From Cystobasidium ongulense (lineage: Eukaryota > Basidiomycota > Cystobasidiomycetes > Cystobasidiales > Cystobasidiaceae): a DNA stretch of 64,000 bases. Of the stretch, positions 19,608 to 52,422 are shown piece by piece (positions within the stretch are counted from its first letter, which is position 1; each line of letters begins with the position of its first letter). Location of the stretch: contig BQUP01000004.1 in the NCBI GenBank assembly GCA_022835595.1, forward strand, positions 806,001 through 870,000. The letters are read 5' to 3'. The notes under the pieces are model-generated. The model was not told where the DNA came from, did not search any database, and worked only from the letters and a program-made list of their open reading frames with translations. The position numbers and the translations under genes were made by a program.

Positions 19608-20841
19608 TTATGCGGAGAACTTCTTAGCGGTGAGAGTGAGGTGAGAAGAGAACTCAGAGTATGGCTCCTCTGGTAGCTCGAGTCGTGGCCATAATTCAGG
19701 GGTGAGGATATGGTAAGTTTGCGAGATGGCAACGAAGGTGGCCTTGAGGAAATTCTAAAATGAAAAAGCAAGTACGTTAGCGATAAGCAAATAAGCTATT
19801 ATGAACGCTTTGAGTAATGCATGACTTACGCCCATGGTGGATGTAGCACCGCGCGAAGCAGTGTAGCAATCTTCGACACCAGCGAGCTGTAGGATTCGCT
19901 TGGATGCTGGTGCGGCGACGAGACCTGTTCCTCGTGGAGCGGGGATGAGCTTGATGGTGACGGAAGCGCACTTGCCCTGGGTCTTGGCTGGGATGGTGTG
20001 TGGCTCTCCGAGCTTGTTACCCCAGTATCCTAAGATCACAATCTATCAGTCCTTGATACATTCAAGCTTTACGTTTGAGCTTGTCTCACCTCTTCGGACA
20101 GGGACGACAGCGAGCTTGGCGAGGATGATAGCACCACGAATAGCGGTAGCTACTTCCTTGGCGCACTTTACGCCTAGACCTAGATGACCATCGAAATCAC
20201 CAATGGCGACGAAAGCCTTGAAGCGTGTTCTTTGACCGGCACGAGTCTGCTTCTGGACGGGCATAATCTTCATAACCTCATCCTTGAGCTTGGGCAGGAG
20301 AATGTCGATGATTTGGTACTCTTTGACGGGGAGGGAGAAGAGGTAGATCTCCTCGATGGACTTGATCTTGCCGTCCTTGACGAGTCGGCCTAGCTTGGTG
20401 ACGGGGACCCTGTAAGCGAGGTGATAATTAGTGCTATTCCAAGACATATTTCCGGTAGCTAGCTAGCTAGCGAGCGAGCGAGTGGATAATAGCGACGTTG
20501 CGTATCTTGCTGTGAGCGTAGGTTCACTTCGATGCGGGTTTGCTGCTGTCCATCTTTCCTGTCAACGTTATGCATGTTCACATCTCCAATTGACGATCCA
20601 TCTAGCCTTCCCGAAACGTAGAGTACCGGCGTCGTCCACTGTCCAATGTCCGTATCCACTCGCGTCGCTTGGCTCGCTCGCTCGCTTCGTCCCGCTCGTC
20701 AACTCACCACTCCTTCTCTTCGTCCTTGCGTCCACCGCGTCTTCCACGGCCTCTGCCACCACGACCGCGGTCAGCACCACGGCCTCTTCCACCGAATCCA
20801 CCACGAGCTCCAGCTGGAGCGACTGCTGCTGCGTCTGCCAT
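19608..20841 (-). CDS. RPS2: 40S ribosomal protein uS5 (Rps2)
   Basis: uS5 is a core small-subunit protein at the mRNA entry channel. The start at 20841 gives the eukaryote-specific Arg/Gly-rich N terminus ([19 protein letters not shown]), then KDEEKEW. After intron 1 (20410-20707, 298 nt, long for this genome) come [38 protein letters not shown]-like sequence ([20 protein letters not shown]), [20 protein letters not shown] and LAVVPVRRG. Exon 3 gives [20 protein letters not shown] and [19 protein letters not shown], and exon 4 [20 protein letters not shown] to the stop at 19608. All landmarks of the family are present. It is divergent from the antizyme gene. Intron 1 carries the inverted repeat described separately. 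Confidence 0.97.
20410..20707 (-). other. RPS2 intron 1 with inverted tetranucleotide repeats
   Basis: This 298-nt intron splits the codon for Trp in KDEEKEW/VPVT. Read on the plus strand, GCGAGCGAGCGAG (20470-20482) next to the 3' splice site and CTCGCTCGCTCGC (20673-20685) next to the 5' splice site are perfect 13-nt inverted complements; a (TAGC)n run adjoins the first. I found no box C/D pair (TGATGA...CTGA), so a snoRNA is not claimed. Confidence 0.8.
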
Positions 20842-21460
20842 GATTGTTGTGTGGAGTGTTGCTGGATCCTGCTCTTGATGCGAGTCTCGACCTGGAGGTG
20901 TGCGCAATGAGCCGTGTCCGTCGTTGATGCTGAGAATCGTCGGCGAGTTGCGGCGTGCAGCTGAAATAGGGGCTGGAAGAAAGCGGCAGGGAAGGCTCGC
21001 CTGAGAATGGCGGACAGTATCAGGGGCGGAATGGAGAGAGAGTTGGCAGCTGTACGAGGACATACTAGCACTGTGTAAGATATATGCAATGTACACCAAT
21101 TGCTTGCACACTCTCACAGGGTGTATTCCCCGACCTGCCCGTCTGTGCCACCTGCAGCACCCTGGTGCAGCTGTATTTGCCACATTCCACGGCTGAGCTG
21201 GCCAGGCAAGCGCGAGTGGCTGACTCTGGCGCATTCTGTCGCATCGGCGCAAGTCTGCTCCATTCCATCCACCACATCCACACCACACCACCCACAACCC
21301 CCAGAGGTGAGCAGCATTGCATTGGACACTACACACACACCACTGACCACCTGCCTTTCTTCCCCCGCCAATTTGAACCATCTCGCTGCCACCCAATCCC
21401 ATCGACCAACTCACAACCCAACCAACCAACACACACAGAACCCAGACACGTTGGCGGACC
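20842..21460. promoter_or_regulatory. Bidirectional promoter region RPS2 / antizyme
   Basis: A 619-bp divergent region. Its antizyme-proximal half (about 21255-21445) is a CA/CCA-rich tract on the plus strand (repeated CACACCACACCACCC and CCAACCAACCAACACACAC), typical of highly expressed fungal promoters and leaders. Long frames crossing it (for example 20704-21462 minus) are composition artefacts. Exact start sites cannot be seen. Confidence 0.45.
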
Positions 21461-23068
21461 ATGTCGTCGAATCCAGAAATACCAAATTCAAATCATAATA
21501 ACAGTATACGCCTCGACGGAGGTGCCGCTGTCTGCGGCGCACCTCTGTCTGATGGGGCTTCATTCTTCAACGGGTGAGCACGCATCCACTTCGAGAGCAA
21601 GAAAGAAGGTCAAGCGAGGTGGACGGATGGGACATGCTGGGAGGCAAGGAAGGAGGACGAGAGAGCATGTTATGGTCTGGGGGGATGCTGTATGGCTGTA
21701 CTAGAGCTGTCAACTCTCAAGCAGTCACACCCGCAGCCAGCCAAGCATGCACTCGAATCAGCTCCCGCCAAAGAAGCCTCCCATTCATCCCCTCGCTCAA
21801 TGGCCGGACACACCACACACACCATACTGACATGTCTGCCCTACGTCTACAGCAGCGCATCTACTCTCCCATCGTGCACTACGATGAGCGCAAAGGCTCA
21901 GTGCTGGCCCTGGTGAGTATTGCCCTGTCGCGATCGCTGGATTCGGCGCACGTTGCTGACTGGTGTCGTCTACAATCCACTCTTTCCCTCCTGCTCGTCA
22001 ATCGTGTCAAATACGAATTACTGCCTTCGACCATGTATCGACGCATTGACCCGCCGTTATCCTTGTCCGACCTACTTGCATCATCTGCCGCACCCATCAA
22101 CAGACGTCGGTCAAGCACGAAATGCCTCCCTTAAGGCCTCGGGAGGTGCACTCGGAAGTGAGAGATCCGCGTGCTGGGCCAAGTCCGGTAATGGTCAATC
22201 TACAATGACGGTCAACTCTATCAACAAGTCCAACAATGCCACTCTTCGATCCGCTGCTCCTGTTCATATTGAACTAGGCTCGGTTCAAGGTCTAGTTGGG
22301 TCTGAAGGATTCGGTCAAATCAATAACAATGGTATCAACAATGTCAACAACAAGAACAACAACAACCAGGAATTCATCACATCAACCTATCCCCCCTCAC
22401 CTCCCCCAAGTGACGCTGCTCAGCTCTCTGGCGAATCGGCAGCAGCCAAGCCTCTGACGATGGCGAATGTCTCGACATTCTCCACCGCAGCAGCTGCTGC
22501 TACTGTCGTTGGTGGATCTCCCTTTTCTGCCATCTCCACATCCCCTACCACGGATGAGGATGATGCGGAATCATCAGAGGGAGAAGGAGACTCTGCATCC
22601 GAGATTTCATTCTCTTCGGATTCATCAAGCTCTTCATCTATTGCTGCCTCGAACAAGGATCACCAATTCTTGGCATCAGTCTTTGGTCCCACCTACCTCG
22701 ACTCTTTCTCCAAGCTTGGCGTTCAGGTCACCCTGCCTACCCAGGATGTCTTCCCTGCCGAATTGGGCTTGAAAGGTTCCGCTGTACTATCTGCTACCCA
22801 GCATGGTACAAAGACAGCCTATCTCTGCCCAACAGACATGGAAAAACTGGACAGCCAAACTCTGGTTGATTTATTGGAAATCGCAGATGAAGATTTGGAA
22901 TGCTCGGCCCTTGTCATTTGCCTTGAACGTAAAGGCAATGATGAGGATGAGACGCTAGCTGAAACCCTACATGCTCTTATGTATGTTGGTGGATCTATCG
23001 TAGCACCAGATGCAGGTGTTGTCAAGTATGATTCGGACAAGTACATCCTCGTCGGATTGGACCTCTAG
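21461..23068 (+). CDS. OAZ1: Ornithine decarboxylase antizyme, decoded by programmed +1 frameshift
   Basis: Antizyme binds ornithine decarboxylase, blocks polyamine synthesis and sends the enzyme to the proteasome; polyamines induce the +1 frameshift needed to make it. Proposed exons: 21461-21573, 21853-21912, 22104-23068. Frame 0 (MSSNPEIPNSNHNNSIRLDG to KAQCWP, 57 codons) ends at UGA formed across the exon 2/3 junction. The +1 frame then reads DVGQARNASLKASGGALGSE, resembling the post-shift DAPxPPLKIPGG of other antizymes. A long low-complexity spacer (Asn, Ser, Ala and acidic runs) follows. The antizyme domain starts about 22670: ATQHGTKTAYLCPTDMEKLD, TLVDLLEIADEDLECSALVI, CLERKGN, ETLHALMYVGGSIVAPDAG and the end ILVGLDL. 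Total about 378 residues, longer than the animal protein (about 228) because of the spacer. It is divergent from RPS2. Family assignment is strong; exon 1 is less certain. Confidence 0.85.
21908..22105 (+). promoter_or_regulatory. Split +1 recoding site CCC-UG|A-C of antizyme mRNA
   Basis: CCC is 21908-21910 and TG 21911-21912 at the end of exon 2; intron 2 is 21913-22103 (donor gtgagt, acceptor caacag); exon 3 starts AC at 22104-22105. Spliced mRNA reads TGG CCC TGA CGT in frame 0 and, after slipping one base at the stop, CCC (U) GAC GTC GGT, which enters the antizyme frame. CCC-UGA is among the shift-site variants known besides the common UCC-UGA. Without splicing, frame 0 instead meets a UGA at 21914-21916 that cannot lead into the antizyme frame. 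Confidence 0.8.
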
Positions 23069-24064
23069 ATTCATATGTATCAGTTACAGCAACATCATCT
23101 CGCCTCCTACTCCTATCTCAAGTCGATTCTTCATTGAATCCTCTCAATTCACATACACTCTCTCTCGCAACGTCACTCGTGGTTCTCGCCTCTCGACATA
23201 CAAACTTCAATTACATCTCTACACTCCTGTACTCCTCATTCTTCTCTTACATTGACTGGTTCTTACACATTTCTGCAAAATCTCGACTCTTATCCACCTT
23301 TTTCCGGCCCTCCTATGAATGTGCGCGTTATTTACAAATAAACTTCCAAACAGAAAAAAAGAAAATCATATTTAAAACATATTCGGATCGTTTCATTCAA
23401 GGAGATTACAATAAAGCGATATCACTTCAATTGCCTGTTCTCTTTCCTTATCTGTTACTACATTGGATTAAAAGCTTTTCTGGAAAGGTTTACTTCTTTG
23501 ACACCAAGCTTGTTTGATAAATAATACATACAGTAAACCCCGCATGTTCTCTCCCCTCTTCTCTCTCGCTTTGATTACACATTCCATTTTTACTTACTTA
23601 AATGATGAAAAAGACCCATAAATATTACCCCCCGGAAAACTACAAACCCACAAGGGCAGACTTGACTTTTCTGCAGCTATCGGCCTGTCTCTGCTTGCTA
23701 TCTTGCTCCTTGCATTTGCTGTGCATTCATTGCCTGGCGCCTACAACGACATACCTTGATTCAGCCAGGTTTCCGAGCTCGTCGCTGGAACGGCCTAGGT
23801 GAGGAACCTGCAAAACCGGGCGATGCTGAACCGTGATCTGCGTATCTGTTGTGTCAGCTCTCACGAGGGTGATTGCTATATCCTGTACTTGTTCACAATA
23901 GCTTCTCGCTGTCAGGGAATTGCAGGTGGCGCTGAAGGTTGTTTACGCGCGCGCGTCTGTTTTGACTCGAAGCTTTTCACCGCTTAGAAGGTTGTTACTC
24001 TTCCACCTAATTGAGAGTCAGCTACAGCAGACATCACCTTCATCGCAAGTGCTAGCAATTCGAA
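23069..24064. other. Intergenic: antizyme 3' flank and thymidylate synthase promoter
   Basis: A gap of 996 bp between two plus-strand genes. The first part (to about 23560) is CT- and AT-rich, like a long 3' UTR; the second part precedes thymidylate synthase. A GCGCGCGC run lies at 23946-23953 and an MluI-box-like ACGCGT at 24126-24131 falls inside the coding region rather than here. No gene or RNA is supported. Confidence 0.5.
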
Positions 24065-25268
<1,204 letters not shown>

Positions 25269-32133: not shown

Positions 32134-32227
32134 AGACCACTACGGGGCTCGAACCCGCGATCTTCAGCTTTGTACAAATCGCATTGATTCATCGTAGGCT
32201 GACGCCGTACCATTTGGCCAAGCGGCC
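32134..32227 (-). tRNA. tRNA-Arg(ACG) with a 22-nt intron
   Basis: On the minus strand from 32227: acceptor stem GGCCGCT pairs with AGTGGTC (32141-32135, two or three G-U pairs); D arm TGGCCAAATGGTACGGC; anticodon stem TCAGC/GCTGA; loop CT-ACG-A...A giving anticodon ACG; variable loop AGATC; T arm GCGGG-TTCGAGC-CCCGT; discriminator U at 32134. The intron sits in the canonical place, one base 3' of the anticodon (TGAATC...ACAA, 22 nt). The D-arm and anticodon region closely match yeast tRNA-Arg(ICG) (GGCCxAATGGTxACGGCGTC, CTACGAA, AGAAGAT). It decodes CGU/CGC/CGA after A34-to-inosine editing. Internal A and B boxes are therefore present, and a TTTT run follows within 20 nt as Pol III terminator. 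Confidence 0.9.
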
Positions 32228-47339: not shown

Positions 47340-48621
47340 GCCCTTACTTCATGTCACTCAGCTTGCCAACCTCTTGGTCGGTGACGCTGCAGTTCTCAAG
47401 GTTGCTGTTCACTCAAGTACACCTACACACACTTTCGACCTTTCTATGCTTTAGTAGTCCTGTTGCTATTCACTAGTGTTTTCCCCCAAAGTGTTAGGAC
47501 GCTCTATCTATCGTGTTGTTTTGATTTCCATTTCGGCCTTTCTTTTTACGCTGAGCAATGCAACTTGCTTTTACTGCATAGGTCTCTTCACTTGCTTTCT
47601 GTTAGCCTCAATACCACAGAGCTTGATTTGGGATTGCTAATGCACCCCATCCTGGTCATCAAAGCTATCTTACGCCAACTCCAGGTTCACACGAATATGC
47701 TCTGCACCTGTGCGAAGCCTTGTTTGGTCACGTGTTTCTATCCACACTACCGACCTTCCGTATGATAGGCTTGACAATAATCTGACGACAACGCGGCTGG
47801 ACAAGTGCATTGATAGCCAGGCAGACTACAAAGGCTTTCAATGCCCACTTAAGTGTACAGTGTCCTTCTGCCTCTGCCTGTTCCTCATGCGCGTCGAGAT
47901 TGCCAGCCAAACAAACACGTGCACGCAAATGTCGAACTCTGAATTGCGAGCGAGTGAGTGCGTAGTGAAGGTCTCCAACCCGCCAACCTGCTGTTGCATC
48001 TCCCGACTCGTCTCCACACTCATTCAATTTACTCTAAAGCCTCACTACTCCCTCGAGTCGGCAGCAGGCTCTCTTCATCCACTCCCAGTCCTCTTTTCTT
48101 GTTCGACTTCTAAGGCTGTACGTGCGCAGGACAAAAATGATGGAGGGACAGTAGATCAGCGGAGATAGAGCTTGGAAACCGACGTCAATTGCTAGTATCA
48201 CACAGCAGCTTGCTCTATAGCATCGCCAGCCAGTCCGCCATTGCTTGAGCATTCCTCGAGTCGTCAAATTGGCTGCGATCAGGCCTTCTTGAGACGCAGC
48301 GAGTCTGTTTACTGCTGGAGAAGCACAATTGACAAGCATCGTCTACACACACACACCTACACGGTAGACCCACACTCTTTTATACAACACACACATGCTC
48401 CGATAGACGCATCTTGGAGAGTTCTCGCAGATTCAGTGCTCGCTTCAGCTCCGGATCCTTTCAATTGCTGGACGGCTCGCACTCTGAGCTTTGTAGACTT
48501 GTGAGGAGCAAAATTTACACAAGACACATTGAAAGCATCGTGGCCAGAGTAGCTGACCTATGACCCTGTTTATCCCTCGAGATAGCCCCACCCACACTCT
48601 TTGGACTTCTCGACATCATAC
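47340..48621. other. Intergenic: H2A 3' flank and long leader of the next gene
   Basis: 1.28 kb with no supported gene. The frame 47710-48168 has no conserved sequence. The last 300 bp contain CA repeats (48344-48396) and CT-rich sequence, fitting a long 5' UTR for the large membrane protein. Confidence 0.45.
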
Positions 48622-51600
48622 ATGATGGCCGCCACACTAGGGGTGCCCAGCCAGCCATCATCAGCATTAGCATCTTCCCCAACGAACGATATACCCATTC
48701 CAACCCAGCAAAGAATACTCCGAGCAACACGCTCTGCAACTACCTTTCGTGCTCCTCACTCAAGCGATAACGATCTCTCAGCCGATGGATCACACGTTGC
48801 GAACAACACAGGCAGCAGTGGCGGACTGTCACTCTCTCACCATGCATTATCACTATCTCCTCCCCCAGACCTATCCTTCTCCAAATCATCACTTCATTCA
48901 GATCAAGAGACTGAATTCCTATCTAGACCTGGTGGAAGTGGAGTCTCTTTCAATCAACCTTATCTAGACACACATTATCAGTCGCAGTCTGCGCCCGAGC
49001 ACGAACACGAGCGCGTGAGGATAGCTCCGTCAAGTAGAGGTCACGATCCTTCTTCTTACCCGTACCATCAGAACGATAGCTGGGGAAGCCGTGTTTCTGC
49101 CAACAATACTTCCAAGTCCCGCATTCGATTAGACAGCGTGTTTGGAACGCAACTACCTGGTTTCCCATACCTCAATTCGGCAGCTGCAGCCACCTCATCA
49201 GCAATACATCCCGTAAATCCACACTACCACATTCATCATGGTTCTTCCTCAAGTGCCGACCTACTCAAAGGAAGATCTTCGTACAACTGGAGTGAAAGAA
49301 GCGCTTCCGTTGCAGGGCATCACCCAAGGGCGCCAACGTCGCACAGTATAAGAAGTGTGCATGGAAAGGAATCAGTAATGTCGCTCGGTCGACTCACTCC
49401 AGCATCGAAACAACGGCTGAACGCAGTCGCAACATCGGCTGCGGGAGATGTGGATACTTCTTGCTCTGGAGAGACGGGAGAAAGTAATTCTTCAGATGAA
49501 GTGGATCTTGATTTATCGTTTGATATGGACGTCCTTCGTGCTCGTCAGATGCAGCAATATCACGCAAGACAGCAACGTGATCTTCAACAGCAGCATCAGG
49601 CGCAACCTGTCGGAATCTCATCGTTGCAGGTGCAAGCTGAAAGACAGGCTAGAATTAGAGCGCTTTCATCTACTGAAGCCGTAGCACACAACAAATCTGG
49701 GCATGTGGGAATAGACATGCCACGAGCTAGTACTGCAAATGAAGAAGCATCACTTGGCCTCCTGTACCATGGCAGCGAAGAACACAGACGCTACCTTCTG
49801 GGCGGAAAGAAGCGACTTTCTCGCTCAGCTGTGGAACTGCGCCCTGCTACGAATAAATTGCACGCTTCAACATCATCCATGACAGGTGCTCCAATTGCGT
49901 CTACATCGCGGGGACCTTCAACAATGCGAAATCAGCCGAATCATCCATATCGCCAATCTGGCAGGTTGTCCTCCACCATGCCGGCGTGCAGTAATGGCTC
50001 TAATCAAATTAGCAAGTCGAGTCGTGCGTCTTTAGATCTGGCAGTAGATATACCCCTGTCTCACGATGATACGCGAGCCCCTCATCCTACCTTCATGGAC
50101 GAAGATGAGACTAGTGCACATCTAGGATGGTCATTCGCGACTACACCGCCATTGTCGCCTGCTGAAATCGTGACATACGCTGAAGGAGCAGGAAACATCA
50201 GTAAAGGACAAAGACGCTATAGTGCAGGAGCATCGAATCTATTTCAATCGATAGACAGAAAGAAATCGTCTACTGAATTGTTACAAAGAAAGAGGAGACC
50301 TTCCTTTCCTTTGATGTCACTCTTTGACAAAACTGGTAGAGCATCTGTTGCTGGTGCCATTCCTTTTAGAGCGGGTGATACGAACACCGCTGCGTCCCCA
50401 CACAGCCCAGATAGTGATCCTTCTTGGGGATCCCCTACGCCTAGAGGATCTGTTACTCTCGATTTCACGGCCACACAACATGGGCCTCCTCAACAACAGA
50501 ATCAACAAAATCAAAATATTCCTCTTTATCCTATTCCATCTACCGGACCTCGAAATCACGGCTATTGCAATGCCAGTATTTCAGACCTGGCGAGAACCCC
50601 TGAAAGCAATGCCGGTCAGTTACCCCTTCCACCTCGCTTGAACGATCCAGCTAGACTGGGTGCGAGTCCAATCAGCAGTGTAGGTACACCAGGTACTCTT
50701 TCCCCAGATATAGGTGCTACCAGTTCTACCTTTTCCTCGCCTCGTTCTCCGAACGATGATTTGCCGACGCCAAGAACCGCAGATTTCGCTCATCCTCATG
50801 ATAGAGATGATACTAGATATAGTCAATTCAGTATGAAAGCTGCTTCTGATGGGGGAATGAGCTTTGCTAGCGCTGGCAGAGAAACGGTGGAAGCTGTAGA
50901 TTTCTCGAAAAGGGAGAGCAAAGTGTTTGGGATAGGAGGAGAACCACTGGCTGGTCTATCACCTAATCTAGAAGCTATACCTGAGCAGAATGATAGCCCT
51001 CAGAAATCAGTCCTTCAAACTTCGACTTCTAAATCCTCTGCTTCTTCCGCCACCGGAGGATCTCCGAAGACAACCAAACCTCCGAGCGCCTCTCAAAACC
51101 AAAGCGGTGGTGGCGGACTTCAATCTTCTCAAATACAAAATGAGCAGCAGCAGCAAAGTCAAGGACACAAAAGACAGTCATCGTCGCTCTTCAGATTTCC
51201 TTTCGTTTCTTCTCTTCGCAACCCTTTTGCTGCACGTTCTGCTTCTGGTCCCTCTATCACGGCTGCTTCTGCTCATCTCAACGATCAATCATCATCAAGC
51301 TCACACGACTCGCCATCAGGCTCCGTTGAAGAGCTTTTAATTCCAGCTGCTGTTGCTGCTGGTATTGCTCAGAAGAGCGTTGCGGCCGCTAAAGTTGCAG
51401 GGAAGAGATCGGATTCACCCAACTCGTCGGAGGAGTCTCACTTCTTACCTCCTTCAGATCCACCAACCCCTCCTCGACCTGGTGCAACTTCACAGGCGTC
51501 CAAAGGCATCGACCCGTCTATGCTTCGGCAAGGTCCCAACATAGGCAAAGGTCGCTTATCTGGCCTTGGCCTTTCTTTCCCTTCCACATTCATAAATTCT

Positions 51601-52422
51601 TTACCGCCCCGTCAAGTCTCCGAGCATCAACCGACGAACCATCATCAGATACAACAACCTCATCGACAAGCATCTCTTCCTGTCTTGTCTTTCTCCGCTG
51701 CTAGTGACGAACAACACGAAGCTAGTGGACGCTCGGTCGAAAGTGAAGAGGCCGCAATTCAAGTCATTCCTGACGAAAACGGATATGGGAGACCTGTTGA
51801 GCCACGAAAGAGTTTAACGTTTACTAGGAGATCAGTTTCTGATAGTGGGCAGCGTCCTTTCCCTACTTCGGCGCCAGCTACCACGGTGCAGTTCAATCAA
51901 GCCTCTACTGGGCTGGATAGTCGGATGCAGCAATTTCACACGGGTGAATTCGGCTCTTCCCCTGCCCGACCTGATACAGTCCTCGAGACCCAAATTCAAA
52001 CGCATGCACAATACAGAAGACCTCGGACTAGACTCCTATCAGCACAAGGATTCGATTTGCGTGGTCGTGTCGACCGATTGCGTCCTTCACAACTTCTCTT
52101 CCTCGCAGCTTTTGTCGCTGGACCATGGTGCTTCATCGTAGGAGGATGGTGCCTTCGTTCTATCGATGGCGATTATACATCCGCTAAGGGTATACGGTGT
52201 CGCTGTCCCGCTGCATCAGAATCGTGTGATTGTCAGGCAGAAATTTACAAACAAATCAAATTGTCAGGAGGTCAAGTGGACAGGGTATTACAATCCCAAA
52301 ATGGACAAGTGAGGAGGATGGATAGATTTGTACTGGCGAATAGAGTCGCAGCTCTCACATGCGGTACGGGCACCCTCGTCCTGGCTATCACTGCCCTCAT
52401 TGTCGTCGGACGAGCCTGGTGA
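48622..52422 (+). CDS. Large Ser/Gln-rich protein with two C-terminal membrane segments
   Basis: A single exon of about 1266 codons (ATG at 48622, or 48625). Roughly 1100 residues are low complexity (Ser, Pro, Gln, His) with many possible phosphosites and basic motifs such as KSSTELLQRKRRPSFPLMSL. Conservation-like sequence is confined to the C terminus: GFDLRGRVDRLRPSQLLFLA leading into a first membrane span (FLAAFVAGPWCFIVGGWCLR), a Cys-rich loop (IRCRCPAASESCDCQ), then RMDRFVLANRVAALTCGTGT and a second span (TGTLVLAITALIVVGRAW) ending the protein. There is no signal peptide. The tail resembles the unnamed fungal serine-rich membrane proteins with a GPWCWxxGGW-type first span; a role at the cell cortex is only a guess. 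It is the longest uninterrupted frame in the window. Confidence 0.82.
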   Translation: MMAATLGVPSQPSSALASSPTNDIPIPTQQRILRATRSATTFRAPHSSDNDLSADGSHVANNTGSSGGLSLSHHALSLSPPPDLSFSKSSLHSDQETEFLSRPGGSGVSFNQPYLDTHYQSQSAPEHEHERVRIAPSSRGHDPSSYPYHQNDSWGSRVSANNTSKSRIRLDSVFGTQLPGFPYLNSAAAATSSAIHPVNPHYHIHHGSSSSADLLKGRSSYNWSERSASVAGHHPRAPTSHSIRSVHGKESVMSLGRLTPASKQRLNAVATSAAGDVDTSCSGETGESNSSDEVDLDLSFDMDVLRARQMQQYHARQQRDLQQQHQAQPVGISSLQVQAERQARIRALSSTEAVAHNKSGHVGIDMPRASTANEEASLGLLYHGSEEHRRYLLGGKKRLSRSAVELRPATNKLHASTSSMTGAPIASTSRGPSTMRNQPNHPYRQSGRLSSTMPACSNGSNQISKSSRASLDLAVDIPLSHDDTRAPHPTFMDEDETSAHLGWSFATTPPLSPAEIVTYAEGAGNISKGQRRYSAGASNLFQSIDRKKSSTELLQRKRRPSFPLMSLFDKTGRASVAGAIPFRAGDTNTAASPHSPDSDPSWGSPTPRGSVTLDFTATQHGPPQQQNQQNQNIPLYPIPSTGPRNHGYCNASISDLARTPESNAGQLPLPPRLNDPARLGASPISSVGTPGTLSPDIGATSSTFSSPRSPNDDLPTPRTADFAHPHDRDDTRYSQFSMKAASDGGMSFASAGRETVEAVDFSKRESKVFGIGGEPLAGLSPNLEAIPEQNDSPQKSVLQTSTSKSSASSATGGSPKTTKPPSASQNQSGGGGLQSSQIQNEQQQQSQGHKRQSSSLFRFPFVSSLRNPFAARSASGPSITAASAHLNDQSSSSSHDSPSGSVEELLIPAAVAAGIAQKSVAAAKVAGKRSDSPNSSEESHFLPPSDPPTPPRPGATSQASKGIDPSMLRQGPNIGKGRLSGLGLSFPSTFINSLPPRQVSEHQPTNHHQIQQPHRQASLPVLSFSAASDEQHEASGRSVESEEAAIQVIPDENGYGRPVEPRKSLTFTRRSVSDSGQRPFPTSAPATTVQFNQASTGLDSRMQQFHTGEFGSSPARPDTVLETQIQTHAQYRRPRTRLLSAQGFDLRGRVDRLRPSQLLFLAAFVAGPWCFIVGGWCLRSIDGDYTSAKGIRCRCPAASESCDCQAEIYKQIKLSGGQVDRVLQSQNGQVRRMDRFVLANRVAALTCGTGTLVLAITALIVVGRAW

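Follow-up and report, generated by a model that had tools for sequence, protein, structure and literature searches.

Antizyme curbs polyamine production, and the protein and its +1 slip are already known, as is the antizyme circuit itself. What this locus of Cystobasidium ongulense raises is the question of how an antizyme shift site can be made when its stop codon is interrupted by an intron. Our answer is that the shift-site stop codon appears to be assembled only on removal of the predicted intron 2, and that the window - the whole stretch of 64,000 nucleotides that was analysed - very probably holds a fungal ODC antizyme gene with programmed +1 frameshifting at a splice-made CCC-UGA-C site and with a two-stem-loop element downstream of it. 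The frameshift, its stimulation by polyamines and the binding of ODC are properties that we infer from the antizyme family.

Predicted exon-intron layout and reading frames

A profile search matched PF02100, the ODC antizyme domain, to the gene (E 2.7e-12; 47 bits against a cut-off of 24.2), and the match spans profile positions 43-113 of 114. The layout of the gene, from its leader to its final stop, is given below.

21307..21438, + strand: probable 5' leader intron, 132 nt, GAG/GTGAGC ... ACACAG/AACC, with a branch-like CTGAC at 21343 (called from sequence only)
21461..21573, + strand: coding part of exon 1 with the ORF1 start, 37 codons plus 2 nt; donor GTGAGC follows
21574..21852, + strand: intron 1, 279 nt, GTGAGC...CTACAG, with CTGAC at 21827 and tandem exon starts at 21853/21856
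21853..21912, + strand: exon 2, 60 nt, with UGG at codon -2, CCC as shift codon and UG of the ORF1 stop
21913..22103, + strand: predicted intron 2, 191 nt, GTGAGT...CAACAG, with an AG-free body; interrupts UG/A
21914..21916, + strand: UGA met on RNA that retains intron 2, in the antizyme frame
22104..23068, + strand: exon 3, with the last base of UGA and then ORF2 in the +1 frame; stop TAG at 23066-23068
22853..23062, + strand: ODC antizyme domain, PF02100 profile match, in the +1 frame

ORF1 starts with the ATG at 21461, and a sequence scan of 21100-21460 found no ATG upstream of it. On the predicted spliced mRNA, where 21912 is joined to 22104, ORF1 has 57 codons, or 56 if exon 2 uses its alternative acceptor, and its 3' end at the join reads TGC TGG CCC TGA C. 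On this mRNA a short ORF1 ending in a stop is followed by the antizyme domain in the +1 frame, and ORF2 is open in that frame up to the TAG at 23066-23068. The site is CCC-UGA, a type known in antizymes, and not UUU-UGA, the Agaricomycete type. Exon 2 ends with TGGCCCTG, followed by the donor GTGAGT, and intron 2 interrupts the ORF1 stop between G and A, UG being the end of exon 2 and A the start of exon 3. By consensus, this donor and the acceptor CAACAG resemble good splice sites, and branch-like motifs are found in intron 2 at 21956 (CTGAC, ~144 nt from its end) and at 22046 (TTGAC, ~54 nt).

A preliminary description of this DNA had given coordinates for the shift site and the exon junction, all of which proved correct when the sequence was read again. 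Its ORF1 length of 57 codons was borne out as well (56 if the tandem exon start 21856 is used), and its proposal that the +1 frame leads into the antizyme domain agrees with the PF02100 match at E 2.7e-12. That CCC-UGA is a known antizyme shift variant also stands, though the variant is rare according to excerpts of PMC5009743, in which two such sites were known at the time of an extensive survey.

Codon usage was judged against 2,388 codons taken from elsewhere in the window (four open frames or genes), a reference that includes stop-to-stop open frames, one of them (48586-52419) without a Pfam match. By this measure the joined ORF1 has coding-like codon usage in frame 0, with 0/2,000 mononucleotide shuffles as good, and so has ORF2 (0/2,000 shuffles). 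Exon 2 alone gave no significant coding signal (P 0.13), its 60 nt being too short to decide.

Several further features were observed in and around the gene. The tandem acceptor CAGCAG at exon 2 (21853/21856) would yield two ORF1 products that are one serine apart and leave the frame unchanged. The probable leader intron has a long AG-free stretch, with CTGAC ~92 nt before the intron end, and at 132 nt it exceeds both introns, of 99 and 91 nt, in the neighbouring thymidylate synthase gene, a length comparison that is limited to these two introns, the heuristic intron list probably containing false positives. That gene (24065-25268, + strand; three predicted exons) lies directly downstream of the antizyme gene, and the PDB entry closest to it is 2aaz, presumably the thymidylate synthase of Cryptococcus neoformans. 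On the opposite strand, an open frame of 262 residues (20707-21492, - strand) reaches into antizyme exon 1. Rfam at gathering scores returned one tRNA for the whole window (32134-32227, - strand; 47.8 bits), which a bacterial-mode ARAGORN scan missed and whose 94 nt may mean that it carries an intron; over 21300-23500 Rfam gave one chance-level match (E 1.3). Searches with the ORF2 protein brought 6 pattern matches among viral contigs and 91 among prokaryote genome contigs, 0 of which were confirmed in either set. A PDB sequence search with the 383-residue open frame yielded nothing but antibody light chains (5 matches up to E 1; best E 0.37).

The predicted 21912-22104 junction and the RNA downstream of it

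The junction was tested among 182 GT-AG pairs, with donors at 21860-22059, exon starts at 21900-22329 and introns of at least 45 nt. In 6 of the 182 the ORF1 stop falls no more than 12 nt from the join and ORF2 lies in +1, and the strong donor at 21913 is used by 2 of those 6, with exon starts at 22104 (after CAACAG) and 22296 (after GTCTAG). The first AG after 21916 is the intron 2 acceptor at 22102. AG was absent in 6/20,000 mononucleotide shuffles of the intron 2 body and in 53/63,818 windows of the same size on the + strand of the window. On that strand two AG-free gaps reach 186 nt or more, and one of them lies inside intron 2. The longest + strand AG-free gap of the window, at 23121-23352 (231 nt), is found just after the antizyme stop.

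The RNA that follows the predicted junction may form a structured element with these parts.

22120..22123, + strand: AAAU abutting stem 1, nt 19-22 after CCC in the spliced mRNA; a published feature (PMC4505036, excerpts)
22124..22147, + strand: stem-loop 1, putative 3' frameshift stimulator, 7 bp with a 10-nt loop; kept in the longer fold
22148..22174, + strand: stem-loop 2, directly adjacent, 4 bp, a 1x1 mismatch and 4 bp with a 9-nt loop; ends at nt 72 of ORF2

This putative element provides what we regard as the strongest support for the predicted junction. According to excerpts of Yordanova et al. 2015 (PMC4505036), many basidiomycete antizyme mRNAs carry, ~19 nt past the shift site, a pair of adjacent stem-loops that AAAU abuts, and AAAU is invariant in the sequences that bear the structure. 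In the spliced mRNA predicted here, stem 1 begins 19 nt after UGA and AAAU begins at nt 19 after CCC; the available text of PMC4505036 is ambiguous on which count its 19 nt means. It is in the spliced message only that the element reaches the published distance, which is why it supports the joining of 21912 to 22104. Taken with the sequence itself, these published traits of basidiomycete antizyme mRNAs sustain the earlier claim that an intron splits the UGA and that an exon junction sits exactly at the shift site. Although we have a single sequence, frame and RNA element agree with each other, which argues against a sequencing error. Initiation from the ATG that intron 2 contains at 22033 was considered too and rejected: its frame first stops at the TAA at 22132, after CCT and within stem-loop 1, which misfits the published spacing.

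How stable the element is depends on how much RNA is folded. The two stem-loops make up the 51 bases after AAAU, and a 53-nt fold reached -22.9 kcal/mol (z -2.17), with 4/200 shuffles as stable; with AAAU included, z was -2.31 and 6/200 shuffles were as stable. The second stem-loop directly adjoins the first without a break in pairing in these isolated folds, an arrangement that is lost in an 85-nt fold from 22104, where stem 1 is kept and stem 2 is replaced by an enclosing helix. This longer fold was no stabler than its shuffles (z -0.20; 78/200 as stable), and part of its enclosing helix would sit under the ribosome at the shift site. Across both strands of the window, 2/460 AAAT sites have an abutting GC-rich stem of at least 6 bp and 1/460 has an adjacent second stem-loop in addition, a count that is not independent, as the pattern was written after the antizyme structure had been seen. 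Loop 2 has 9 nt, or 7 nt if the A.A mismatch counts as paired; the loop 2 published in PMC4505036 has 7 nt with six invariant bases. Excerpts of the same paper report mismatches or bulges in stem 2 especially outside Agaricomycotina.

Decoding of the spliced message and rival readings

In the mechanism we envisage, splicing of intron 2 would join the UG of exon 2 to the A of exon 3 and thereby generate the ORF1 stop together with CCC-UGA-C. Ribosomes on the spliced mRNA would then terminate once 57 codons have been read, or else enter ORF2 by a +1 slip on CCC, with more slippage at high polyamine levels, and the AAAU-abutted two-stem-loop element ~19 nt downstream may aid the slip, as has been proposed for other basidiomycete antizyme mRNAs. 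Spliced RNA would be needed for the shift site because retention of intron 2 (58 residues before UGA) and skipping of exon 2 (a 47-residue product with no shift site) would each give a short ORF1 peptide only. All predicted introns - in the 5' leader, intron 1 and intron 2 - lie upstream of the ORF1 stop or within it. Under the mammalian exon-junction rule, a complex left downstream of a terminating ribosome leads to mRNA decay; no exon-junction complex would remain downstream of ORF1 termination here, and the mRNA would be spared that decay.

Could the antizyme frame be reached in another way? It had been claimed that unspliced RNA would stop at 21914-21916 with no route to the antizyme frame. 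The stop is indeed there, but the second part of the claim does not hold, as this UGA belongs to the antizyme frame, and on unspliced RNA that frame is open from 21917 to 23065. One may thus think of a scenario where intron 2 now and then stays in the RNA and readthrough of UGA 21914-21916 yields antizyme, with no frameshift and with a product made of ORF1, 62 extra residues encoded by the intron, and antizyme. The shared frame of this UGA and all codons up to 23065 would permit it, and still it strikes us as very improbable. The frame of intron 2 is open by chance in ~22% of 20,000 Markov simulations (P ~0.22) and thus unremarkable, while its codon usage in the antizyme frame is non-coding-like, being matched or bettered by 98% of 2,000 shuffles. 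Moreover, when a phase-2 intron begins with the donor GTGAG, a UGA at that place comes as a by-product, and intron 1 shows one too; readthrough would leave the stem-loop element ~190 nt further from the stop. There is similarly little to commend a different splice that fuses ORF1 to ORF2 in a single frame and makes frameshifting unnecessary. Such a fusion is allowed by 5/182 GT-AG pairs, one of them with the strong donor 21913, but all 5 use exon starts at 22159 or 22165 (CGGAAG, GTGAGAG), which lie in a purine-rich stretch inside stem-loop 2, and AAAU and stem 1 would be deleted. Hardly credible to our minds is a +1 shift at another stop, obtained when donor 21913 is joined to exon start 22296 so that ORF1 ends in GTC-TGA-A with a stop that is whole in exon 3. 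This junction, with its acceptor GTCTAG, is one of the two with the strong donor that passed the stop-near-join test; however, it lies 192 nt beyond 22104, would skip 11 AG exon starts that come before it, CAACAG at 22104 among them, and would delete the published-type 3' element.

With frameshifting at the splice-made CCC-UGA-C as the preferred reading, the question becomes what, if anything, the intron adds to it. Its place inside the shift site is probably a neutral accident that has no effect beyond the need to splice. By simple arithmetic, when two coding introns are spread over ~1,140 coding bases, CCC-UGA is hit by one of them with a probability of ~1%, and isolated cases are therefore to be expected among hundreds of antizyme genes; a 2007 survey by Ivanov and Atkins is said to have covered close to 300 antizymes. 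Alternatively, regulated splicing of intron 2 could act as a second polyamine- or stress-responsive switch atop frameshifting. That intron 2 has one of the two + strand AG-free gaps of at least 186 nt, and possibly a distant branch point, would be in keeping with such a switch, as would the loss of the shift site upon retention or exon 2 skipping. TTGAC at 22046, 54 nt from the intron end, could however serve as a more ordinary branch point, and an intron anywhere upstream of ORF2 could act in a similar all-or-none fashion, so we hold a regulated switch to be unlikely. A coupling of splicing and frameshifting, in which intron 2 is spliced conditionally and antizyme is switched off whenever the intron is kept or the 60-nt exon 2 is skipped, seems to us decidedly doubtful.

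Relation to known antizymes

The antizyme, its +1 site and its 3' element are of known kinds; what is unusual is the placement of an intron in the stop codon of the shift site. A recoding site interrupted in genomic DNA is missed by searches of unspliced genomes, and a split site offers a natural experiment on whether frameshifting or mRNA decay is altered by an intron placed there. No intron inside an antizyme shift site is described in the available excerpts of PMC5009743, PMC9604110, PMC4505036, PMC2375905, PMC4759687 and PMC12551717, nor is a split antizyme shift site found among the literature matches listed, a scope outside which fall the 2007 Ivanov and Atkins survey and a 2000 yeast-to-mammal paper.

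With mammalian antizymes the present gene shares the antizyme domain and a +1 shift at the last ORF1 codon, while some of the mammalian mRNAs differ in having a stimulator of the pseudoknot type, 3 nt past the shift site (PMC5009743, excerpts). The same source gives UCC-UGA as the site in the majority of antizyme genes, in contrast to CCC-UGA here, and reports that frameshifting at CCC-UGA was significantly below that at UCC-UGA in one mammalian cassette. GlAZ of Ganoderma lucidum, as far as excerpts of PMC9604110 go, resembles our gene in its short ORF1 (66 aa), in a shift structure at TGA and in being one antizyme gene. One of the gene models predicted there contains a GT-AG intron, the place of which relative to the shift site is not given in these excerpts; GlAZ differs in its shift structure, given as TTTGA.

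Among basidiomycetes more broadly, excerpts of PMC4505036 assign UUU-UGA to all Agaricomycetes analysed and to one Dacrymycete, and describe the four Tremellomycete sequences of that study as lacking a 3' structure, from which the present gene would probably come from a basidiomycete outside those classes. Agaricomycete-type antizymes are further marked by a conserved nascent peptide ahead of the shift site. Relative to the basidiomycete antizymes of that paper, the shift codon is CCC here and UUU there, and the stop codon here is interrupted by an intron, a word that is absent from the portion of its text available. Yet the present gene has in common with them the layout of ORF1, +1 shift and ORF2, the ~19-nt spacing, AAAU at stem 1, an adjacent and mismatched stem 2 and, as in some basidiomycete antizymes outside Agaricomycetes, UGG at codon -2 (PMC4505036, excerpts).
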